Part shown: positions 17,609 to 64,000 of the stretch, piece by piece
How positions within the stretch are numbered: position 1 is the stretch's first letter
Layout: each line of letters begins with the position of its first letter
Assembly (NCBI GenBank): GCA_003222395.1
Contig: QHWB01000044.1
Span: 124,001-188,000 of the forward strand
DNA: 64,000 nucleotides
Direction of reading: 5' to 3'
Source of the DNA: Acidobacteriota bacterium
GTDB lineage: Bacteria > Acidobacteriota > Vicinamibacteria > Vicinamibacterales > CAVVIG01
The notes under the pieces: model-generated
Seen by the model: the letters and a program-made list of their open reading frames with translations, nothing else
The model's database searches: none
What the model was told of the DNA's origin: nothing
Translations under genes and position numbers: made by a program

Positions 17609-18326
17609 TCTGGGCGCCGCAGCCGTGGCCGAAGTCGAGCGGCTGACGGCCGCACGGACCCTGATGCGCGACGGCGACACGCTCGCGCTGACGCGCCTCG
17701 AGACCGAGGGGCCTTGGATCGGCATCGCTCGATCGAAGCTGAAGAGACGTCTGGGCGGGCGCCGATTGGAGATCTGGCGCGTCGGCTACGAAGACGCGTC
17801 TGGAGGGCTCGTCGAGTCGCGATTGGTCGTGCTCGCGATTCACGAACGCGAGCGCTCGCCTGAAAGGCTCGCGCTACGCGAAAGCCTCGCGCTATCGGAA
17901 AGGCTCGCCGAACCCGTCGCCGAATCTATCGCCACACCTGTAGCGCGAGCCTTTCAGGCGAGCGAAATCCGAGCCTTTCAGGCGAGCGAACTCCGAGCCT
18001 TTCAGGCGAGCGAAATCCAAGCCGTCATCGACTCCGCGATGGTCGAATGGCGCGACGCGGTCGCACGCGCTGTCGCGTCGTTCGCGTCCGCGCGGCTCGC
18101 ACGCGAAACGGCGATCGCCGCGTCGGCGGCGCCGGTGCGCTCAGCGCCGATTCAGACGGGACTCTTCGATCGGCGCGAAGAGCACGCGCATGCGGCCCTC
18201 GAAGAGGGACGTCGTAGCGTCTCGGAGGCACTCGCCGAACGCAAGGCGTCGGCGCAGCGCGCGGCCGCCCTCGTCGCAACCGCGCCCAAGCTCCTGCTGG
18301 TGATTGCCGGTGCTGGCCGGACTTGA
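17598..18326 (+). CDS. Helper protein of the helicase-methylase operon, unknown function
   Basis: 242 residues from the ATG at 17598, which overlaps the helicase stop by 11 bases. The N-terminal part (LGAAAVAEVERLTAARTLM, WIGIARSKLKRRLGGRRLEI) looks like a small alpha/beta domain. The C-terminal part is a helical segment with IQTGLFDRREEHAHAALEEG, a motif also found in C-terminal parts of large RapA-type helicases. It may therefore be a split-off helicase tail. The centre (about residues 85-140) is encoded by the hairpin repeat CGAGCCTTTCAGGCGAGCG and reads as three RAFQASE units, so it was probably not part of the ancestral protein. The 3' end overlaps the methylase start by 23 bases. Confidence 0.65.
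   Translation: MNSDLGAAAVAEVERLTAARTLMRDGDTLALTRLETEGPWIGIARSKLKRRLGGRRLEIWRVGYEDASGGLVESRLVVLAIHERERSPERLALRESLALSERLAEPVAESIATPVARAFQASEIRAFQASELRAFQASEIQAVIDSAMVEWRDAVARAVASFASARLARETAIAASAAPVRSAPIQTGLFDRREEHAHAALEEGRRSVSEALAERKASAQRAAALVATAPKLLLVIAGAGRT
17849..18016. repeat. Hairpin repeat family (GAGCCTTTCAGGC type) inside a coding region
   Basis: Several units (TCGCCTGAAAGGCTCGC, its decayed copies, and three direct copies of CGAGCCTTTCAGGCGAGCG spaced 27 bases) lie in frame within the helper gene. The two orientations face each other, so an inverted pair encloses about 50 bases. The core GCCT-TTC-AGGC is a small hairpin. The same family occurs at 25891-25920, 32868-32889 and, as a compensated variant, at 34021-34335. 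Confidence 0.85.
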
Positions 18327-25730: not shown

Positions 25731-25810
25731 GTTTCTCTCGCCTGCCGAGTCGCTCGGCTGAAGGCCTCGCGCTACGACGCGGTCACGCCACTGCGTGGCA
25801 ACGCCACCGC

Positions 25811-25920
25811 CAATTGGTAGCGCGAGCCGCCGATTGGTAGCGCGAGCCGCCGATTGGTAGCGCGAGCCGCCGGTTGGTAGCGCGAGCCGCCGATTGGTAG
25901 CGCGAGCCTTTCAGGCGAGC
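25811..25920. repeat. 20-bp direct repeats, CGATTGGTAGCGCGAGCCGC
   Basis: Five copies in a row (starts near 25811, 25831, 25851, 25871, 25891). The last continues as CCTTTCAGGCGAGC and so joins the GAGCCTTTCAGGC hairpin family. An inverted partner (CTGAAGGCCTCGCGCTACG) lies at about 25759-25776. Confidence 0.9.
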
Positions 25921-32919: not shown

Positions 32920-34029
32920 ACGACGCTCCCGCGCCGATTCTATGCGGATCCTGATTTCTACCGGAGCGAGCTGGAACGCTTTTATTTCAATCGGTGGATT
33001 TGCGCCGGCCGCGCCGATCAGCTCCCGAACAGCGGCGATTACTTTACACGCTCGCTCGCGGACGAAAGCATCATCGTCACGCGCGATTCAGCGGGCGCGA
33101 TTCACGCGCTGTTCAACGTGTGCCGCCACCGCGGCACGCGCCTCTGCGAGCAGGCCGAAGGCCGCTTCGTCGAGCGCATTCAATGTCCGTATCACGCGTG
33201 GACGTACGATTTGTCAGGACGATTGCTGGCCGCGCCTCACATGGCCGCAGGATTCTGCAAGGACGAGTACCCGCTGCATCGCGCGGGATGCGATGTCTGG
33301 GACGGCCACGTGTTCGTGCTCCTCCGTCCCGCCAATCCCGCCCATCCTCCCCTTCCCGCCCATCCTCCCCTTCCCGCCCTTCGAGATCAGCTGGGTGATC
33401 TGCCAGAGCGATTCGCGGCATACCGGATGGCCGACCTCCGTCTGGGCCGGCGCATCGTGTACGAGGTCAAGGCGAACTGGAAGCTGATCGTTCTCAACTA
33501 CAACGAGTGCCTGCACTGTCCGACGCTGCATCCGGCGCTCAACAAACTCCATCATTACCTCGGCGCCGACAACGTGACGCCGACGGCGTGCTACTGCGGC
33601 GGCGCGATGGGATTCAGAGACGGCGTCGAGACGATGAGCATGGACGGAAAGCGCCGGCGCGAATATCTGCCCGGGCTGAGCGAATCGCAGCGGCAACAGG
33701 TCGCGTACTACTCGATTTATCCAAACTTCCTGCTCAGCCTTCATCCCGATTACATCATGACGCACACGCTCTGGCCTCGCGCGCACGATCGAACCGAGAT
33801 CGTCTGCGAGTGGCATTTCCATCCCGACCAGATGGCGAAGCCCGACTTTCACATCGACGACGCCATCGAGTTCTGGGATCTCACGAACCGCCAGGACTGG
33901 TGGATCGCGGAGCAGTCGCAGGCCGGAATCAACTCGCGTGTATACCAGCCGGGGCCGTACTCGGAGCGCGAGGAGCTGCTCTGGTCGTTCGACGAGATCG
34001 TGAGACGAGAGGCAGAGCGGCTCGCCTGA
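32914..34029 (+). CDS. Rieske non-heme iron oxygenase, alpha subunit
   Basis: 371 residues. The Rieske [2Fe-2S] ligands are in VCRHRGTRLCEQ (about 69) and CPYHAWTYDLSG (about 91). The mononuclear iron site is in LNYNECLHCPTLHPALNKL (about 196). This belongs to ring-hydroxylating oxygenase alpha subunits, and the size and NYNECLHC motif suit the quaternary-amine (glycine betaine, choline, carnitine) branch. An insert RPANPAHPPLPAHPPLPALR (about residues 141-160) is encoded by a minisatellite. The stop codon TGA (34027-34029) belongs to the hairpin repeat that follows. A GcvT homologue is convergent downstream. Confidence 0.9.
   Translation: MHTTLPRRFYADPDFYRSELERFYFNRWICAGRADQLPNSGDYFTRSLADESIIVTRDSAGAIHALFNVCRHRGTRLCEQAEGRFVERIQCPYHAWTYDLSGRLLAAPHMAAGFCKDEYPLHRAGCDVWDGHVFVLLRPANPAHPPLPAHPPLPALRDQLGDLPERFAAYRMADLRLGRRIVYEVKANWKLIVLNYNECLHCPTLHPALNKLHHYLGADNVTPTACYCGGAMGFRDGVETMSMDGKRRREYLPGLSESQRQQVAYYSIYPNFLLSLHPDYIMTHTLWPRAHDRTEIVCEWHFHPDQMAKPDFHIDDAIEFWDLTNRQDWWIAEQSQAGINSRVYQPGPYSEREELLWSFDEIVRREAERLA
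33337..33388. repeat. In-frame CCCGCCCATCCTCCCCTT minisatellite in the Rieske gene
   Basis: Two and a half 18-bp units, pyrimidine-rich. They encode PAHPPL repeats between the Rieske domain and the catalytic domain. The same sequence type occurs at 35535-35613 and, as the purine strand, at 51768-51905. Confidence 0.85.
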
Positions 34030-34335
34030 AAGGCTCGCCCTACGCACGTCGCGCGAGGCTTTCAGCCGAGCGTGCTGTAGCGCGAGGCTTTCAGCCGAGC
34101 GTGCCGTAGCGCGAGGCTTTCAACCGAGCGTGCTGTCGCGCGAGGCTTTCAGCCGAGCGTGCTGTCGCGCGAGGCTTTCAACCGAGCGTGCTGTCGCGCG
34201 AGGCTTTCAGCCGAGCGTGCTGTCGCGCGAGGCTTTCAACCGAGCGCGCTGTCGCGCGAGGCTTTCAGCCGAGCGTGCTGTAGCGCGAGGCTTTCAGCCG
34301 AGCGTGCTGTAGCGCGAGGCTTTCAGCCGAGCGGC
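34021..34335. repeat. Ten 29-bp tandem hairpin units (GAGGCTTTCARCCGAG type)
   Basis: GAGGCTTTCAGCCGAGCG is repeated ten times with a strict 29-bp step (cores near 34056 to 34317), with G/A exchange at one site and TGC/CGC, TAG/TCG variants. It is preceded by one CTGAAAGGCTCGCC unit that provides the Rieske stop. The last unit provides the stop of the convergent GcvT-like gene. The core GGCT-TTC-AGCC is a hairpin. There are no unique spacers, so it is not a CRISPR array. Confidence 0.95.
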
Positions 34336-35534: not shown

Positions 35535-35613
35535 TGGGGCGGGAGGGGCGGTTCCCGCGCATCCTGCCTGTCCTGCCCATCCTGCCGTTCCCGCCCGTCC
35601 TGCCTCGGTGTCG
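35535..35613. repeat. TCCTGCCYGTCCTGCCC-type minisatellite, intergenic
   Basis: Degenerate 9-bp units (CCTGCCTGT, CCTGCCCAT, TCCTGCCGT, TCCCGCCCG) fill the divergent gap between the GcvT-like and amidohydrolase genes. It is the same family as the in-frame arrays at 33337-33388 and 51768-51905. Confidence 0.85.
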
Positions 35614-35633: not shown

Positions 35634-36896
35634 ATGAAACAAGTGATCGTTGCCGGCGCGGCGGTGATCGTCTTCTGCGCTCAGATTGCGGCGCCGCCCG
35701 TGATTGCCGTTCGCGCGGCGCGGCTGATCGACGGGCGCGGCGGTCAGCCGATTGCGCCGGCGGTCGTAGTGATTCGCGGCGATCGGATCGAGGCCGCTGG
35801 AAGCGGCGTGACGATTCCGAGCGGCGCGCGCGTGATCGATCTCGGATCCGCGACGCTGCTGCCGGGCCTCATCGATCTCCACACGCATCTGACGAGCACC
35901 GGCATTCACTGGGAAGAGGAGTTGTTGAAGACGACACCCGGCCAGGCGGCGCTGCATGGCGCACACAACGCGTCGATCACGCTGATGGCAGGGTTCACGA
36001 GCTGCCGCGACATGGGACCGACGTGGCCGTACACCGATATCGATCTGCGAAAGGCGATCGACGAAGGGATCGTGCCCGGTCCGCGGCTCATGGTGTCGGG
36101 CAACTACGTGTCGCCGACCGGCGGCGCCGGCGATGCGCGCCAGTTCTCGATCTACGTCGACGTACCGATCGTCAGGAACCTCGCCGATGGTCCCGACGAG
36201 ATCCGCAGAGCGGTGCGAACGAACCTGAAGCAGGGCGCCGATTTCATCAAGATTCTCGGCACCGGCGCGGTGCTGTCGAAAGGCATTCCGCCGGGCGCGC
36301 AGTCCTACACCGAAGAAGAGATGCGCGTTGCCGTCGAAGAAGCGGCGAGATGGGGGAAGCACGTCGCGGCGCATCTGCACGGCACCGACGGCATCAAGGC
36401 CGGCATCCGCGCTGGCGTGCGCACGGTCGATCACGGCAGCATCATGGACGACGAGGCGGTCGCGCTGCTCAAAACACATCGTGCGTACTTCGTGCCGACG
36501 CTCTACACGAGCGAATCGATTTCGGGCAACGGGAACGTACCGGAGTCCGAAAAGGCGCGGTCGCGCGAGATCAAGGCGTTGAAGGACCGGTCGTTCCGGA
36601 TGGTGCTCGCGGCCGGCCTGCCCATCGGCTTCGCGACCGATGCCGCCGTCGTTCCGCACGGCGAGAACGCGCGCGAGTTCGCCTATCGCGTACGGCTCGG
36701 ACAGACGCCGATGGCCGCGATTCTGTCGGCGACGAAGACCGCCGCGGAGATCATGGAATGGAGCGACCGCGTCGGGACGATTGAAGCAGGCAAGCTGGCC
36801 GATCTGATTGCCGTGGCCGGGGATCCGCTGCGCGACATCACGGAGCTCGAACGCGTCACGTTCGTGATGAAGGGCGGCACCATATACAAACGTTGA
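35634..36896 (+). CDS. Secreted amidohydrolase (metal-dependent, imidazolonepropionase/prolidase-like)
   Basis: 420 residues. A signal peptide (MKQVIVAGAAVIVFCAQIAA) is followed by an amidohydrolase composite domain. Metal ligands: HTH in LIDLHTHLTS, carboxylated Lys probably in ADFIKILGTG, His in HVAAHLHGT and VRTVDHGSIM, Asp in IGFATDAAVVPHG. It hydrolyses amide or ester bonds of small peptides, perhaps Xaa-Pro or similar. TAGAAT ends 8 bases before the ATG at 35634, so a short or absent leader is likely. Its stop TGA (36894-36896) is the first three bases of a heptad repeat array. Confidence 0.88.
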   Translation: MKQVIVAGAAVIVFCAQIAAPPVIAVRAARLIDGRGGQPIAPAVVVIRGDRIEAAGSGVTIPSGARVIDLGSATLLPGLIDLHTHLTSTGIHWEEELLKTTPGQAALHGAHNASITLMAGFTSCRDMGPTWPYTDIDLRKAIDEGIVPGPRLMVSGNYVSPTGGAGDARQFSIYVDVPIVRNLADGPDEIRRAVRTNLKQGADFIKILGTGAVLSKGIPPGAQSYTEEEMRVAVEEAARWGKHVAAHLHGTDGIKAGIRAGVRTVDHGSIMDDEAVALLKTHRAYFVPTLYTSESISGNGNVPESEKARSREIKALKDRSFRMVLAAGLPIGFATDAAVVPHGENAREFAYRVRLGQTPMAAILSATKTAAEIMEWSDRVGTIEAGKLADLIAVAGDPLRDITELERVTFVMKGGTIYKR

Positions 36897-37030
36897 GATT
36901 GCAGATTGCAGATTTCTGATTTCAGATTGCAGATTTCAGATTGCAGATTTAATTTCAGATTGTTGTCGCTAATCAGCAATCTGCAATCTGCAATCTGCAA
37001 TCTGCAATCTGAAATCTGAAATCTGAATTG
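36892..37030. repeat. AGATTGC heptad array, inverted pair without cargo
   Basis: A left arm of GATTGCA / GATTTCA / GATTTCT heptads starts at the amidohydrolase stop codon. After about 20 irregular bases (tgttgtcgctaat) the inverse complement follows (AATCTGC ×5, AATCTGA ×3) up to 5 bases before the next ATG. The arms can form a long stem. The same heptad family is at 53411-53583, 58595-58672, 59140-59191 and 63918-64000. Confidence 0.92.
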
Positions 37031-50309: not shown

Positions 50310-53300
50310 ATGAAGAAGACCATCGCGCTGGCGTTCGTCGTTGCCGCGTCGTCATCTCTCGTCGCGCAGCAGACGTTCGTCCGCGATCCGAAGGTTCCGA
50401 TCGATCAGCAGTACACCGCGAAGATCAAGGAGTACACCACCGAGCCGTTCTTCACGTCGCCGCTCGTCGACTACCTGCCCGCGTCGAAGACGGTTCCGAC
50501 GCCGAAGGCGGTGCTCGGCGACATCGCCGGCGCGCCCGGCAGGCTGCCGTACGCCGAAGAGGTCTATCAGTACATGCGCATGCTGGAGAAAGCGGCGCCG
50601 CAGCGCGTGAAGGTGTACTCGATCGGCAGGACCGAAGAAGGGCGCGAGATGATCGCCGTGGCGATTGCGTCCGACCAGATCATGGCGAAGCTCGAGGAGA
50701 ACCGCGAGCGCCTGGCGAAACTCGGCGACCCGCGCACGATCAACATGGACGACGCGCAGGCGGAGACGCTCGTGCAGCAGTCGACGCCCATCTACTACAT
50801 CACCGGCACGATTCACTCGCCGGAAACGGGCGCGCCCACGGCGCTGATGGAGCTCGCCTATCGCCTCGTCGTCGACGATCACGAGTACATCAAGTCGATC
50901 CGGAACAACCTGATCACGCTCATCACGCCGGTGATCGAGGTCGACGGCCGCGACAAGATGGTGGACGTGTACAAGTGGCACCTCGCTCACCCGGGTCAGA
51001 ACTGGCCGGGCCTCGTCTATTGGGGAAAGTACGTCGCGCACGACAACAACCGCGATGCGATGGGCGTCACGCTGAAGCTCACCGAAAACGTGCTGAACGT
51101 ACACAACCACTGGCATCCGCAGGTGCTGCACGATCTCCACGAGTCGGTGCCGTATCTCTACGACAACACCGTGGGCGACGGACCGTACAACGCGTGGATC
51201 GATCCGATCCTCGCCGACGAGTGGCAGATGATCGGCTGGAACAACGTGTCGGAGATGACGAAGTTCGGCATGCCGGGCGTGTTCACGCACGGCAACTTCG
51301 ACACCTGGTCGCCGGGCTACCTGATGTTCATCGCCGCGCTCCACAACGGCATCAGCCGTCTGTATGAAACGTTCGGCAACGGCGGCGCCGACACAGTCAC
51401 CCGCGAGCTGCGTCCCGACGAGTACGCGCGCACCTGGTACAAACAGAATCCCCCGCTGCCCAAGACGACATGGTCGCAGCGCAACAACAACAACTACGAG
51501 CAGACCGGCGTGTTGACGGCGCTGCACTACTTCGCGGCGAACAAGCAGCTGTTCCTCCGGAACTTCTACACGAAGAGCAAGCGATCGATCCTGAAAGCGA
51601 AGACTGAAGGTCCCGCTGCGTACGTGCTGCCGGGCGACGACCCGCACCCGGGCCTGCAGGCGGACCTGTTGCGCGTGCTGCAGAAGCAAGGCGTCGAGAT
51701 TTCGCGCGCGACCTCGTCGTTCACCGTCACCGTGCCTGGAAAGCGCTCGAACGCCCGACCGGCGACGACGACAGACGGGCAGGAGGGGCGGGACGGACAG
51801 GACGCGAGCGCGCGCGGTCCGAACGGCCAGGACAGGCGAGAAGGGCAGGACAGGCGGGAAGGGCAGGACAGGCGGGAAGGGCAGGAAGGGCGGGAGAGGC
51901 GGGATCAACCGACGACGCGCACGTTCCCGGCCGGTTCGTACATCGTCCGCATGGATCAGCCGTACAGCCGCATTGCCGATGCGCTGCTCGACTATCAGTA
52001 CTGGAGCCCCAACGATCCGCAGCGCACGCCGTACGACGACACCGGCTGGACGTTCCCCGAACTCTTCAACACGCAGGCCGTTCGCGTCGTCGACATCAAA
52101 GTCCTCGACGCGCGGATGGAAAAGGTGACGGACGTTCGCGTGAAAGGCGGAGTGACCGCCTCCGGATCGATCTTCCTCGTCAACCACAACGCGGACCTTG
52201 GACTGGTCGCTCTGCGCTACAAGTTCAGGGACGCGTCGTTCGAAGCCGCCGAAGAACCGTTCGACGCCGCCGGCCGGAAGTTCAACCGGGGATCGTTCAT
52301 CGTGAAAAACGTGTCGTCCTCGGACATGCAGAAGGCCGCAGCCGATCTCGGACTGCAAGTGGACGCGGTCGGCGCCGCGCCGTCGGTGAAGACGCATCCG
52401 CTGCGCGCGCCGCGCGTCGCGATTCTCCACACGTGGCTCAGCACGCAGACCGAAGGGTGGTGGCGCCACGCCTTCGACGACGCGCAGGTGCCGTTCACGT
52501 ACATCAACACGCAGCAGGCTGCGAAGGACGACAACCTGAACGCGAAGTACGACGTCATCGTCTTCGCCCCGGTCGGCCGCGGGCCTGAAGCGATCGTCAA
52601 CGGCATGCCGATGTGGAGCAACCCGCTGCCGTGGAAGAAAACGGCGGAGACGCCGAACCTCGGATCCGAAGATCAGACCGACGACATGCGGCCGGGACTC
52701 GGATGGAGCGGCGTCGCGCACCTGCAGGACTTCGTGCGGAAGGGCGGACTGCTGCTCACATCGATGGACACCTCGGAGCTCGCCGTCTCGGCGGGTTTCA
52801 CGCCCGGTCTTTCGGTCGCCGCGCGCCAGCGGCTGCGCATCGTCGGCAGCGTCGTGCGATCGAAGATGGTCGACAACACGAGTCCGCTCGCGTACGGCTA
52901 CACCGACAACCTCGCCGTCTGGTGCGACAACGGGCCGATTTTCAACGTGTCGAACATCTTCGGCGCGCGCGCCGGGCGTCGGCTCGGTCCCGACGACGGC
53001 GGCAATCGTCCGACGGGACGCGGCACCGCCGAAGACATCGACGTGCCGCAGGGGCGCCTGGCGATTGACGTGCCGCAGGAGCCTCGGCCCGAAACGTGGC
53101 AGGCCGTGCCGGTCACCGAGGAACAGCTGCGCAACGGCATCAACGTGATTCCGCCGGCGCTGCGCCCGCGCGTCGTGCTGCGATACGCCGACACGCGCGA
53201 TCTGCTCGTCTCCGGTCTCGTCGAAAACGGCGGCGAGATCGCGCAGCACCCCGCGGTCGTCGACGTGCCGCTCGACAAAGGGCACGTCGTCGTGTACTCG

Positions 53301-53410: not shown

Positions 53411-53583
53411 CTGAGATTGCTGATTTATGATTGCTGATTGCTGATTGATTGCTGATTGATTGCTGATTGATTGCTGATTGCTGATCGATTCCAGACTCGA
53501 AGCTGCCGACGAGCGTCTAAATTGCCAATCAATCAGCAATCGACAATCAGCAATCAGAAATCTGCAATCTGCAATTTCGAATT
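53411..53583. repeat. GATTGCT heptad inverted pair with a short spacer
   Basis: The left arm (CTGAGATTGCTGATT, then GATTGCTGATT units) begins 2 bases after the M14 stop. The right arm is inverted (AATCAGCAATC, AATCTGCAATCTGC). Between them lie about 35 unrelated bases with a small dyad (CTCG...CGAG). This is a cargo-free version of the 58595-59191 cassette. Confidence 0.9.
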
Positions 53584-56923: not shown

Positions 56924-57010
56924 GCAGGCCTGAAGGGCTGCGCTACCGATGATTGCTATTGCTGCAGCGACATTAACGCTGCTCGCAGCGCAGCCCTTCA
57001 GGGCTGCTGC
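56924..57010. repeat. GGCCTGAAGGGCTGCGC inverted pair around a gene start
   Basis: Left copy 56924-56947 (GCAGGCCTGAAGGGCTGCGC) and inverted right copy 56985-57010 (GCAGCGCAGCCCTTCAGGGC) enclose 37 bases with the ATG of paralogue 3. The right copy codes for the end of its signal peptide (QPFRAA). The core CCCTGAAGGG is a variant of the CCTTTCAGG hairpin family. Confidence 0.8.
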
Positions 57011-58598
57011 CGACCAGGCGTCGCCACGAACCGCGACGGCGACGATTCGCGGTCACGTCACGGCCGCCGACACGGGACAGCCGATTCGCAGAGCGCAGGT
57101 GCGCCTCACACAGATATATCCACCGTTCACTCCGTTAAGCATCGTTGGTCGAGCGGTCATGACGGATGCCGACGGCGCTTACGAATTCACGGCGCTGCCG
57201 GCCGGCCGCTACAACCTGTTCATCTCGAAGGCCGGTTATGTCGGCGCGCCGTGGGGACAGCAGCGTACCGGCGAAGGCGGAGAGCCGATCGACGCCGCCG
57301 CCGGCCAGACGATCGATCACGTCGACTTCGCGCTGCAGCGCGGCGGCGTTATCACCGGCCGCATCTTCGACGAGTTCGGCGAGCCGTTGTCCGGGATTCA
57401 AGTGTCGGTCATGCGCAATCAGCCGATGAACGGTCAGCGTCAGCTGATGGCGATGTCGAGCGAGCAGACCAACGATCTCGGCGAGTTCCGGATCTACGGC
57501 CTCGCGCCCGGTCAGTACTACGTGCAGGCGGCGTGGAGGAGGTTCGGGCCGGGCGATCCGACATCGCCGGACCGCACCGGCTATCCGCCGACGTTGTTTC
57601 CTGGAACGACCGACGCGGGCGCCGCTCAGCGATTCACGATCGGTGCGGGGCAGACGATCGGCGATCTCGTGATGGCGCTGTCACCGATCAAGGCCGTGCG
57701 AGTCGAAGGCACCGCGATCGATTCGAACGGACGGCCGCTCGCCAACGCGCTTCTGACGATCTCGCAGGAAACGAGCACGTCCGGCTACTCGTCGGGACAG
57801 AGCGTCAGCCCCGAGGGCAAATTCACGCTGACGAACGTCACGCCCGGCGAGTACACCCTGCGTGTCCAGACGAACGACGATCGAAAACAGGTCGCGACGA
57901 TGAAGCTGGCCGTCGGGGCGGAAGACATCAGGGACGTTCGGCTCGTTGCCTCGCCGCCGTCGACGATCTCCGGACGCATCGTGATCGATCCGGCGCAGGC
58001 AGCGTCGATGCCGGTCACCACGTTTTCGGTGAGCACATACTCCGTCGACCCACCGGTGACGGTCTATATCAGCGCGCCGCCCGTGAGGGTCGCCGAGGAT
58101 CTGACGTTCGAGCTGACGCCTCCTTCAATCGGACGACACGCCATCAGTGTCATCAACCTCCCGACCGGCTGGTCGGTCCGCAGCCTGCGCGTCAACAACA
58201 TCGATGTCACCGACGAGGGCATCGAGCTGAAGCCGAACGAGCGCATCTCCGGCGTCGAAGTCGAGCTGACAAATAAAGCGACGACGATCTCCGGAATCGT
58301 GAAGGACGGCAGAGGCGGACCGGCGAAAGAGTGCTGGACGCTCGTCTTTCCGGTAGACAGCAAACGCTGGAAGCCGAACTCACGATACATGAGAGCCTGG
58401 CGTGCGGCTGAGGACGGCCGATTCAGAGCCGCTGGGCTGCCGCCGAGCGATTACTACATCATCGCGCTCGACAAAATGGAGCCTGGTCAGAACAACGATC
58501 CGGAGTTCCTCGAGCGCATCCGCCCGAGAGCGACGAGCTTCTCGCTGGTCGAGGGCGAGACGAAGACGCTGGAGTTGAAGGTGAACATGGTCTTCTGA
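56949..58598 (+). CDS. Secreted carboxypeptidase-regulatory-like domain protein (paralogue 3)
   Basis: 549 residues. A short leader (MIAIAAATLTLLAAQPFRAA) partly encoded by a repeat; cleavage likely near ADQA. Modules match the two upstream genes: ATIRGHVTAADTGQPIRRAQ, MTDADGAYEFTALPAGRYNL, GVITGRIFDEFGEPLSGIQV, GYPPTLFPGTTDAGAAQRFT, VEGTAIDSNGRPLANALLTI. The C-terminus has SLVEGETKTLELKVNMVF. The stop TGA (58596-58598) is the first codon of a heptad repeat arm. Lower GC in codons 30-40 (CAGATATATCC) suggests recent change. Confidence 0.85.
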   Translation: MIAIAAATLTLLAAQPFRAAADQASPRTATATIRGHVTAADTGQPIRRAQVRLTQIYPPFTPLSIVGRAVMTDADGAYEFTALPAGRYNLFISKAGYVGAPWGQQRTGEGGEPIDAAAGQTIDHVDFALQRGGVITGRIFDEFGEPLSGIQVSVMRNQPMNGQRQLMAMSSEQTNDLGEFRIYGLAPGQYYVQAAWRRFGPGDPTSPDRTGYPPTLFPGTTDAGAAQRFTIGAGQTIGDLVMALSPIKAVRVEGTAIDSNGRPLANALLTISQETSTSGYSSGQSVSPEGKFTLTNVTPGEYTLRVQTNDDRKQVATMKLAVGAEDIRDVRLVASPPSTISGRIVIDPAQAASMPVTTFSVSTYSVDPPVTVYISAPPVRVAEDLTFELTPPSIGRHAISVINLPTGWSVRSLRVNNIDVTDEGIELKPNERISGVEVELTNKATTISGIVKDGRGGPAKECWTLVFPVDSKRWKPNSRYMRAWRAAEDGRFRAAGLPPSDYYIIALDKMEPGQNNDPEFLERIRPRATSFSLVEGETKTLELKVNMVF

Positions 58599-58672
58599 GA
58601 TTGCTGATTTCAGATTGCTGATTGCTGATTGATTGCTGATTGATTGCTGATTGATTGCTGATTGATTTATTG
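58595..58672. repeat. Left heptad arm (GATTGCTGATT units)
   Basis: About ten GATTGCT/GATT units starting in the stop codon of paralogue 3 and ending in the stop codon of the four-helix-bundle gene. Confidence 0.93.
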
Positions 58673-59071
58673 CCGCGGGTGACGCCGGGCATGTGGATCC
58701 GGATCGCCGCGTTTTAGTGCTTCGCTCGCTGTGATGCTGGATGCGGCGAGTATCGCGCATAACTGGTCGGCTTCGTCCAACAGCTCCGCGCACCGGGGAC
58801 TTTTCGACAGGGCGCCCTCACCGATAATCTCGAGCCAAAACGCTGACTCGTCCGCTTCCTCGAGTGCGATGTTGATTCGTGCGATGAATTCCGCGCGCGA
58901 CCGAGATCTGCGCGTCGCACGGTAATTGGCCCCCACACCGGTTCCAGAGCGCCGTAATTGATCGCCGATGTCGCGACATTCATCGGTATTCGCCAACGTC
59001 CTCACGAATCCCAGAAAATCGAGAGCGAACTTCTTCGTTCGCGCCTTCAGCACCTCTTTGTCGAATTCCAT
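58667..59071 (-). CDS. Four-helix-bundle protein (S23/IVP, bAvd-like)
   Basis: 134 residues from the ATG at 59071 (alternatives at 59083 and 59137). The family pattern is clear: VLKARTKKFALDFLGFVRTL, DIGDQLRRSGTGVGANYRAT, SRAEFIARINIALEEADESA, FWLEIIGEGAL. Relatives occur in intervening sequences of 23S rRNA genes, and the structurally similar bAvd protein assists diversity-generating reverse transcriptases by binding RNA. Here there is neither rRNA nor reverse transcriptase. The basic, Arg-rich surface suggests RNA binding. The gene lies wholly between inverted heptad arms and is antisense to its neighbour upstream. Confidence 0.9.
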   Translation of the reverse strand: MEFDKEVLKARTKKFALDFLGFVRTLANTDECRDIGDQLRRSGTGVGANYRATRRSRSRAEFIARINIALEEADESAFWLEIIGEGALSKSPRCAELLDEADQLCAILAASSITASEALKRGDPDPHARRHPRQ

Positions 59072-59139
59072 GGAATGGCGCATTTGCAGAATGCGCGCCG
59101 CGTCGATATCGCGCGCGCAAGTCGGTTCAACCGCCATTG

Positions 59140-59191
59140 AATCCAATCAACAATCAATCAGGAATCTGAAATCTGCAATCAGCAATCTCAG
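59140..59191. repeat. Right heptad arm, inverted
   Basis: AATCAACAATCAATCAGGAA, AATCTGAAATCTGCAATC and AATCAGCAATCTCAG are inverse complements of the left-arm units. It ends 8 bases before the stop of the acetyltransferase gene. Confidence 0.93.
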
Positions 59192-59198
59192 AACCCTG

Positions 59199-63620: not shown

Positions 63621-63920
63621 ATGGCGGACAACAAGGAAAAACGGCAACTCGGAGACGCGCTCGGCCTGGTCGAAACGCGCGGGCTCGTCGGCATGATCGA
63701 GGCGGCGGATGCGATGGTGAAGGCGGCGAACGTCGTCTTCGTCGGGTGGCAGAAAGTCGATGCCGGCCTCGTCACCGCGATCGTGCGCGGCGACGTCGGA
63801 TCGGTGAAGGCGGCAACCGATGCGGGCGCCGCCGCCGCGCGGCGCGTGGGCGAGCTGGTCGGCGTCCACGTGATCCCGCACCCCGCGGACGACCTCGAGA
63901 AAATCTTTCCTATCTCCTGA
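63621..63920 (+). CDS. Bacterial microcompartment shell protein (BMC-H)
   Basis: 99 residues with a single BMC domain: [60 protein letters not shown] and [15 protein letters not shown]. This matches hexamer-forming shell proteins such as PduA, EutM and CcmK. The short basic N-terminus (MADNKEKRQ) is normal. It is the only microcompartment gene inside the window, and the rest of the locus, if any, should be to the right. A heptad repeat begins at its stop codon. Confidence 0.93.
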
Positions 63921-64000
63921 AATTGCTGATTGCAGATTGCAGATTGCTGATTGATTGCTGATTGATTGCTGATTGATTGCTGTTGATTGCTGATTGAATT
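63918..64000. repeat. Heptad repeat arm at the window edge
   Basis: GATTGCAGATTGC and GATTGCTGATT units begin directly at the BMC-H stop (TGA at 63918-63920) and run to the window end in the same orientation as the other left arms. An inverted right arm, with or without cargo, is expected beyond 64000. Confidence 0.93.

Follow-up and report, generated by a model that had tools for sequence, protein, structure and literature searches.

S23 four-helix-bundle genes are mostly enclosed by inverted heptad arrays: a possible two-part repeat–protein system

A stretch of 64,000 nt from an Acidobacteriota contig (hereafter the window) contains a small gene for an S23-like four-helix-bundle protein between two inverted arrays of 7-nt repeats, and this layout raises the question of whether the protein and the repeats belong to one system. 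To our knowledge, no function has been assigned to S23/IVP proteins since they were first found in rRNA intervening sequences (IVSs), and we know of no accepted origin for the abundant heptad repeats of bacteria. The original prediction for this locus proposed a small mobile or self-structured cassette, mobilized in trans, in which the protein binds the repeats.

The layout at the locus was found to be as that prediction had described it. The outer 15-nt ends (CTGAGATTGCTGATT, positions 58595–58609) have their exact inverse complement at 59177–59191, the complete inverted repeat comprises 50 nt with 90% complementarity (58593–58642/59144–59193) separated by 501 nt, and the S23 gene is the only content of the cassette (Table 1). 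The arm score at this locus was 35, compared with a best score of 15 among 200 dinucleotide shuffles. The left array extends to approximately position 58672 with an 11-nt super-unit (GATTGCT + GATT), and the S23 stop codon (58667–58669) does lie inside the arm, where the left array degenerates on its inner side. The features that had been overlooked are the stop codon of the neighboring gene in the outer left arm, the gene-less array pairs in the window and the dispersal of the unit throughout the genome. The product of the gene, 159 aa from a TTG (59146) or 156 aa from an ATG (59137), matched both PF05635 (E = 2.6e-11, 44.1 bits against a curated cut-off of 33.8) and TIGR02436 (E = 5e-19, 68.5 bits against a cut-off of 24), and by Pfam and NCBIfam it is a genuine member of the S23/IVP family. 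In an AlphaFold model (pLDDT 83) the protein has four helices; the best PDB matches of the model were 2rld and 2gsc, followed by the Avd structures of diversity-generating retroelements (DGRs; 8ub7, 8ub8 and 4dwl, target TM 0.75–0.83), and the predicted fold is that of an S23-kind four-helix bundle. There were no Rfam matches in the window at the gathering threshold, and the flanking genes are protein genes.

Table 1. Features of the focal cassette and gene-less inverted array pairs in the window
Feature	Position	Strand	Remarks
Gene-less inverted pair, AAGTWCG-type unit (AAGTTCG/AAGTACG/AAGTCAG)	23382–23475		
Gene-less inverted pair, GATTGCT-type unit	36895–37029		Spans from stop codon of amidohydrolase gene to 6 nt upstream of next start codon
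Gene-less inverted pair, GATTGCT-type unit	53411–53575		44 nt between arms; begins 3 nt past stop codon
Left arm, GATTGCT/GATTTCA units, G-strand array	58593–58672	+	Repeat search and TRF; partner 59144–59193
Stop codon (TGA) of left neighbor, in outer end of left arm	58596–58598	+	ORF 56949–58598, CarboxypepD_reg
S23/23S_rRNA_IVP/four helix bundle protein gene	58667–59146	–	PF05635, TIGR02436
Right arm, inverse array, CAATCAG/AATCTGA units	59144–59193	–	50 nt, 90% complementary to 58593–58642
Gene-less inverted pair, GATTGCT-type unit	63918–64000		Begins in stop codon; right arm outside window, C25:188041–188074

We searched 60 relatives of the source genome, which belong to other genera, 49 with and 11 without S23 genes (up to 17 copies per genome). 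Combining 30 loci from these relatives with 80 that came from 84,980 scanned species genomes and with loci retrieved later yielded 175 S23 loci with sufficient flank. All were scored by one scheme, in which a score of at least 14 was taken to indicate arms. Inverted arms were detected at 144 of the 175 loci (82%), compared with direct arms at 21/175 (12%), arms swapped between S23 loci in 28/700 cases (4%), random windows of the source genome in 6/500 and PIN-domain genes from the same relatives in 1/30; likewise, inverted arrays of 7–9 nt matched by TRF accompanied 19 of 30 S23 genes and 0 of 30 PIN genes. The original prediction had anticipated GATTGCT arms at other S23 genes; the arms are indeed there, but the unit varies from locus to locus and is not always GATTGCT. 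It had also counted S23 genes without arms as contrary evidence, and such genes do exist, detectable arms being absent at 31 of the 175 loci (18%), a minority. We considered whether the arm-poor loci are rRNA IVSs and ruled this out, as rRNA was present at 0 of 20. Hosts of the S23 loci include Acidobacteriota, Bacteroidota, Chloroflexota, Planctomycetota and Verrucomicrobiota, and further Pseudomonadota, Bacillota, Actinomycetota, Patescibacteria and ANME-1 archaea; on Nostocales plasmids, among others, arms were found at 6/6 places read. Several S23 genes of one genome were each found between arms of their own unit (this comparison relied partly on loose, illustrative alignment scoring). Enclosure by inverted heptads is accordingly the rule for S23 genes, at about four in five, in bacteria and some archaea, and this general rule, rather than the single locus available to the original prediction, is the real finding.

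Two individual loci may be mentioned. An S23 element of Vreelandella sedimenti (L127, 2843–3500) has a right arm of 94 perfect ACTCACA copies (658 nt) and an imperfect left arm. Two plasmids from one strain of Calothrix brevissima (AP018208 and AP018209; L304 and L305) share an S23 cassette with AGGGTGT arms, which adjoins a phage-integrase gene.

The arms share a distinct anatomy. Their period is 7 nt in 132 of 144 cases, occasionally 8 or 9. Read inward, the upstream arm has more G than C in 135 of 144 cases and more C than G in 8, and pooling of the units gives approximately G-A-N-T-C-R-G. Arm lengths of 29–35 nt account for 113 of 234 arms, with a mode of 31 nt and a sharp peak at 30–32 nt; an arm of 31 nt corresponds to four full periods plus approximately three bases, or to five unit cores. 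The solved S23 relatives 2GSC (XCC0516 of X. campestris) and 2RLD contain five chains each. In TRAP, one short repeat is bound per subunit, and by analogy with that protein we infer that one heptad may be bound per S23 subunit. An S23 protein homopentamer is cited in PMC4990558.

We also analyzed where the elements are placed. At 90 of 139 S23 loci, the start of the upstream arm lies no more than 20 nt from the stop codon of an ORF of at least 150 codons, compared with 23 of 688 shifted positions, and the S23 gene mostly runs in the same direction as the upstream gene (90 versus 44 stop codons). In the Ramlibacter group, the gap between carA and carB is 0–8 bp in most genomes read and 425–444 bp in three; the extra DNA is an S23 element, the first unit of which provides the carA stop codon, and in one genome of the Lysobacteraceae the same junction is occupied by an S23 element of a different unit. 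The carA–carB comparison revealed no clear target-site duplication, and the three filled genomes were not grouped in a tree of 326 bp of carA, which is too weak to distinguish repeated gain from loss. In Hymenobacter, the content of one operon gap depends on the species: the gap is occupied by an S23 element with either TTAGAAC or AGTAGTG/AGTATTG arms, by a gene-less heptad hairpin of 115 bp or by different hairpin inserts, or it is only 76–82 bp long. These cases of presence and absence indicate that the elements come and go at fixed sites, which speaks against the possibility, named in advance as a refutation, that the arms are kept at a site irrespective of the gene. As a separate observation, the Hymenobacter gap (L310–L339, before a thiolase gene) takes unrelated hairpins too, such as AGTTCCCCTCCTTGGAAAGGAGGGG, and is a hotspot for short inserts generally.

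The combination of terminal inverted repeats with presence or absence at a site, by which IS and MITE elements are recognized, is thus found for S23 elements, the presence/absence being seen in the relatives of the element and not at the window's own site. However, many S23 elements of Lysobacteraceae are orthologous over approximately 3 kb, and since most lie at orthologous places, movement of the gene itself is rare. No near-identical cassettes that had jumped recently were found among the loci compared; cassette pairs of high identity, considered as candidates, were overlapping stretches or had identity that continued into the flanks, i.e. orthologous sites. In Lysobacteraceae the locus is mostly inherited in place instead of hopping, so that the term 'small mobile cassette' describes the elements incompletely.

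The repeats are not confined to S23 genes. The pattern GATTKCWGATTKCWGATT, which represents the GATTGCT-type unit, occurs 160 times in the 7.74-Mb assembly, against 0 for a reversed control, and in most cases a forward array was closely followed by a reverse array. Convergent, G-rich 7-nt pairs of the Xanthomonas type are dispersed at gene ends. The first three S23 genes found in the source genome all lie between inverted arrays (units GATTGCT, GTAATTGG and GGGCARA, respectively), and the units at its S23 genes further include AGCTGTC and one of 9 nt. In a survey of 400 kb of this genome, which contained approximately twenty inverted pairs, all five pairs with a spacing of 490–572 nt coincided with S23 genes, and no S23 hit was matched to the pairs 2–150 nt apart. 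Several of the units in S23 arms of this genome recur in gene-less pairs. Such gene-less copies fit the proposal of mobilization in trans.

Other arrays in the window are noted here for completeness. Those of 9-nt, G/C-rich units at 33327–33382, 35553–35605 and 51770–51904 (types TCCCGCCCA, TCCTGCCCG and GGCAGGAAG) resemble the 9-nt arms of another S23 gene in the source genome (C14:611322–612079), and tandem arrays of 29, 24 and 20 nt at 34048–34333, 17946–18023 and 25807–25908 are not of the heptad kind, one example being GTCGCGCGAGGCTTTCAGCCGAGCGTGCT with 9.9 copies. A C-strand array of ACTTC heptads at 1406–1477 belongs to the AAGTWCG family; it has no inverted partner nearby and is possibly half an element.

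The relationship between repeat unit and S23 protein was examined in 119 Lysobacteraceae genomes, 54 with and 65 without S23 genes, using arrays of GGGAATS or GRGATTS; these raw counts ignore phylogeny. Arrays of GGGAAT/GRGATT were found in 42 of 54 genomes with S23 genes and in 14 of 65 without (P = 6e-10, kinship ignored), and at least 100 array matches were found in 19/54 and 0/65, respectively (kinship again ignored). Nine genomes without S23 had at least 10 array matches, and some S23 genomes had no arrays of the two tested units. Within this family, the arm unit of the S23 gene tracks the type of array dispersed in the genome (rho = 0.56, P = 0.004, n = 25). Protein identity was correlated with unit similarity in three separate sets (Mantel rho = 0.20, 0.69 and 0.50; 0/500 permutations in each). 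In a separate comparison of residues with heptads, the top z-scores were 3.5–4.8, uncorrected for multiple tests. Co-variation of arm units with the protein is expected if the protein recognizes the repeat; linkage and shared ancestry partly explain it, and the retention of similar 7-nt units at protein identities of 55–70% hints at recognition, short of proof. Since the arms are general for S23 genes, are gained or lost at orthologous sites and have units that co-vary with the protein, the view that the locus is a cassette, and not a chance layout, is upheld.

Considering the observed association of S23 genes with arms, the period, polarity and 30–32-nt length of these arms, their placement at stop codons, presence/absence at sites, gene-less copies, co-occurrence and co-variation, we propose, with a probability of roughly 60%, that these genes and repeats constitute a two-part repeat–protein system similar to REPIN/RAYT, in which an S23 pentamer recognizes the heptad arms. 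Arrays of approximately five or more 7-nt units would form convergent inverted pairs, spread at gene ends and mostly gene-less; one or a few pairs would enclose an S23 gene, and the focal locus would represent this protein-coding form. The pentameric product most likely recognizes heptads of its own type on the inward-reading, G-rich strand, with approximately one unit per subunit, and might promote the retention of the pairs or their copying into new sites, as RAYTs do for REPINs, so that gene-less pairs would depend on the gene-bearing pairs as their source. Cutting of the strand would be the missing step, as S23 proteins have no known activity of this kind, and the substrate could be either RNA or single-stranded DNA hairpins.

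A different agent of copying would be a reverse transcriptase, with the S23 protein as an Avd-like accessory that acts while the element is copied through RNA. The resemblance of the predicted fold to DGR Avd favors this explanation, and help to a retroelement was implied by the original comparison with Avd. However, a search with the RVT_1 profile (PF00078) found matches in 15 of 49 relatives with S23 genes and 2 of 11 without (P = 0.71), and none in two genomes that each consist of a single contig and carry 10 and 6 S23 genes. Within the reach of this profile, a reverse transcriptase as an obligate partner is thereby refuted in general, many S23 genomes having no match, and we regard the retroelement explanation as highly improbable; in the source genome, the PF00078 matches are located on other contigs (C8 and C96). 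The Y1/RAYT transposase was also considered as an obligate partner and rejected: Y1_Tnp (PF01797) was found in 39 of 49 relatives with S23 genes and 4 of 11 without (genomes G000–G059, P = 0.008), but genomes that carry 17 and 8 S23 genes lack it. Its excess in S23 genomes may reflect partnership or the general load of mobile elements, and the only match in the source genome is on another contig (C106). No transposase related to S23 elements was identified in the PF00078 and Y1_Tnp comparisons.

The arms might instead act only in the transcript, as in an rRNA IVS, closing a long stem about the S23 mRNA, with RNase III cutting this stem and the S23 protein binding its own RNA for autoregulation or stabilization, with no role in DNA movement. 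Such an element is consistent with the folding of the focal sequence into a stem with paired arms (–236 to –240 kcal/mol), with the predominant orientation of S23 genes along the upstream gene and with the IVS of Coxiella, in which terminal inverted repeats, an S23 ORF, heptamers and RNase III excision occur together (PMC4990558). But rRNA is absent both from the window and from the 20 arm-poor loci, and purely cis-acting autoregulation leaves unexplained why the abundance and type of gene-less arrays track S23 genes by genome. We consider this explanation rather unlikely as the main account; it could be true alongside the repeat–protein system, the dispersed copies remaining outside its reach. 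It is less probable still that slippage came first, with convergent heptads being ordinary hairpins of gene ends (terminators or mRNA ends) and S23 genes being passengers that landed there. Bacteria have an excess of heptads, slippage of the polymerase is a proposed origin (PMC4692102, PMC4679880), and array length does vary, up to the 94 perfect units of one right arm. Slippage, however, predicts neither convergent pairs, nor the inward G strand, nor the sharp length of 30–32 nt, and it is opposed by the finding that each of several S23 genes in one genome is flanked on both sides by its own unit, by the tracking of unit and protein, and by the lack of arrays in most S23-less genomes.

The repeat–protein system thus remains our preferred reading, and it ties two long-unexplained features, S23 proteins and heptad repeats, into one system under a rule that spans approximately twenty phyla. 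The predicted target sequence of each S23 protein stands in its own flanks, which makes recognition testable, and the naturally co-varying pairs of unit and protein could supply nucleic-acid binders that are readable and possibly programmable. The rRNA IVSs with S23 ORFs, the heptads of Xanthomonas, Nostoc and Beggiatoaceae, and the S23 fold are already known. The inverted-heptad rule, the five-unit length and the genome-level link of S23 genes to dispersed pairs were not found earlier in the literature searched, where the only previous link between S23 and heptads was the Coxiella case, in a search that missed most subscription journals. There is a fair chance that S23 elements deserve a class of their own. 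The wider claim, that S23 proteins read tandem heptads as pentamers, with one unit for each subunit and five units to an arm, and that together with dispersed pairs they form an unrecognized class of system in bacteria and some archaea, with rRNA IVSs and the Xanthomonas and Nostoc heptads as special cases, is put forward tentatively, at somewhat less than even odds.

Among known systems, the 23S rRNA IVSs with S23 ORFs of Coxiella, Leptospira and Brucella are similar in that an S23-family ORF is bounded by terminal inverted repeats, the folding of which yields a stem, and in Coxiella three tandem GACAGAT heptamers, variable in number, precede the ORF (PMC4990558). The window element shares the ORF between terminal inverted repeats, but it is inserted between protein genes and not in a 23S rRNA helix, each of its arms is a heptad array throughout, and relatives with the same unit but no gene are dispersed. 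In Xanthomonas, convergent GGGAATC heptads form 70 pairs in Xcc and 75 in Xac, mostly 0–50 bp after stop codons and at sites mostly common to both (Rehm 2015, PMC4692102); that study treated them as simple G-quadruplex repeats and mentioned neither S23 nor four-helix proteins. They appear to be of the same kind as S23 elements, the arms of which are GGGAAT/GGGATT in Lysobacteraceae, and X. campestris is the source of the solved S23 protein 2GSC. The TAACTGA repeats of Beggiatoaceae and other heptanucleotide repeats are likewise abundant intergenic arrays, but they are reported as direct repeats before start codons, with no S23 link described (PMC4679880). DGR Avd (4DWL, 8UB7) shares the fold of S23 by structure comparison, whereas sequence identity is approximately 8–10%, S23 needs no reverse transcriptase, and the DGR combination of reverse transcriptase with template and variable repeats was not found. 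In REPIN–RAYT systems, a vertically inherited gene is accompanied by dispersed inverted pairs that are more numerous where the gene is present (PMC8049555, PMC3116915). The S23 system likewise consists of a vertically inherited protein gene and dispersed inverted repeat pairs, with an analogous excess of pairs in Lysobacteraceae genomes that have the gene (kinship ignored); however, its repeats are heptad arrays instead of REP palindromes, and the gene flanked by them encodes not a RAYT (an HUH transposase of the Y1_Tnp family) but S23, a four-helix bundle without known nuclease activity.
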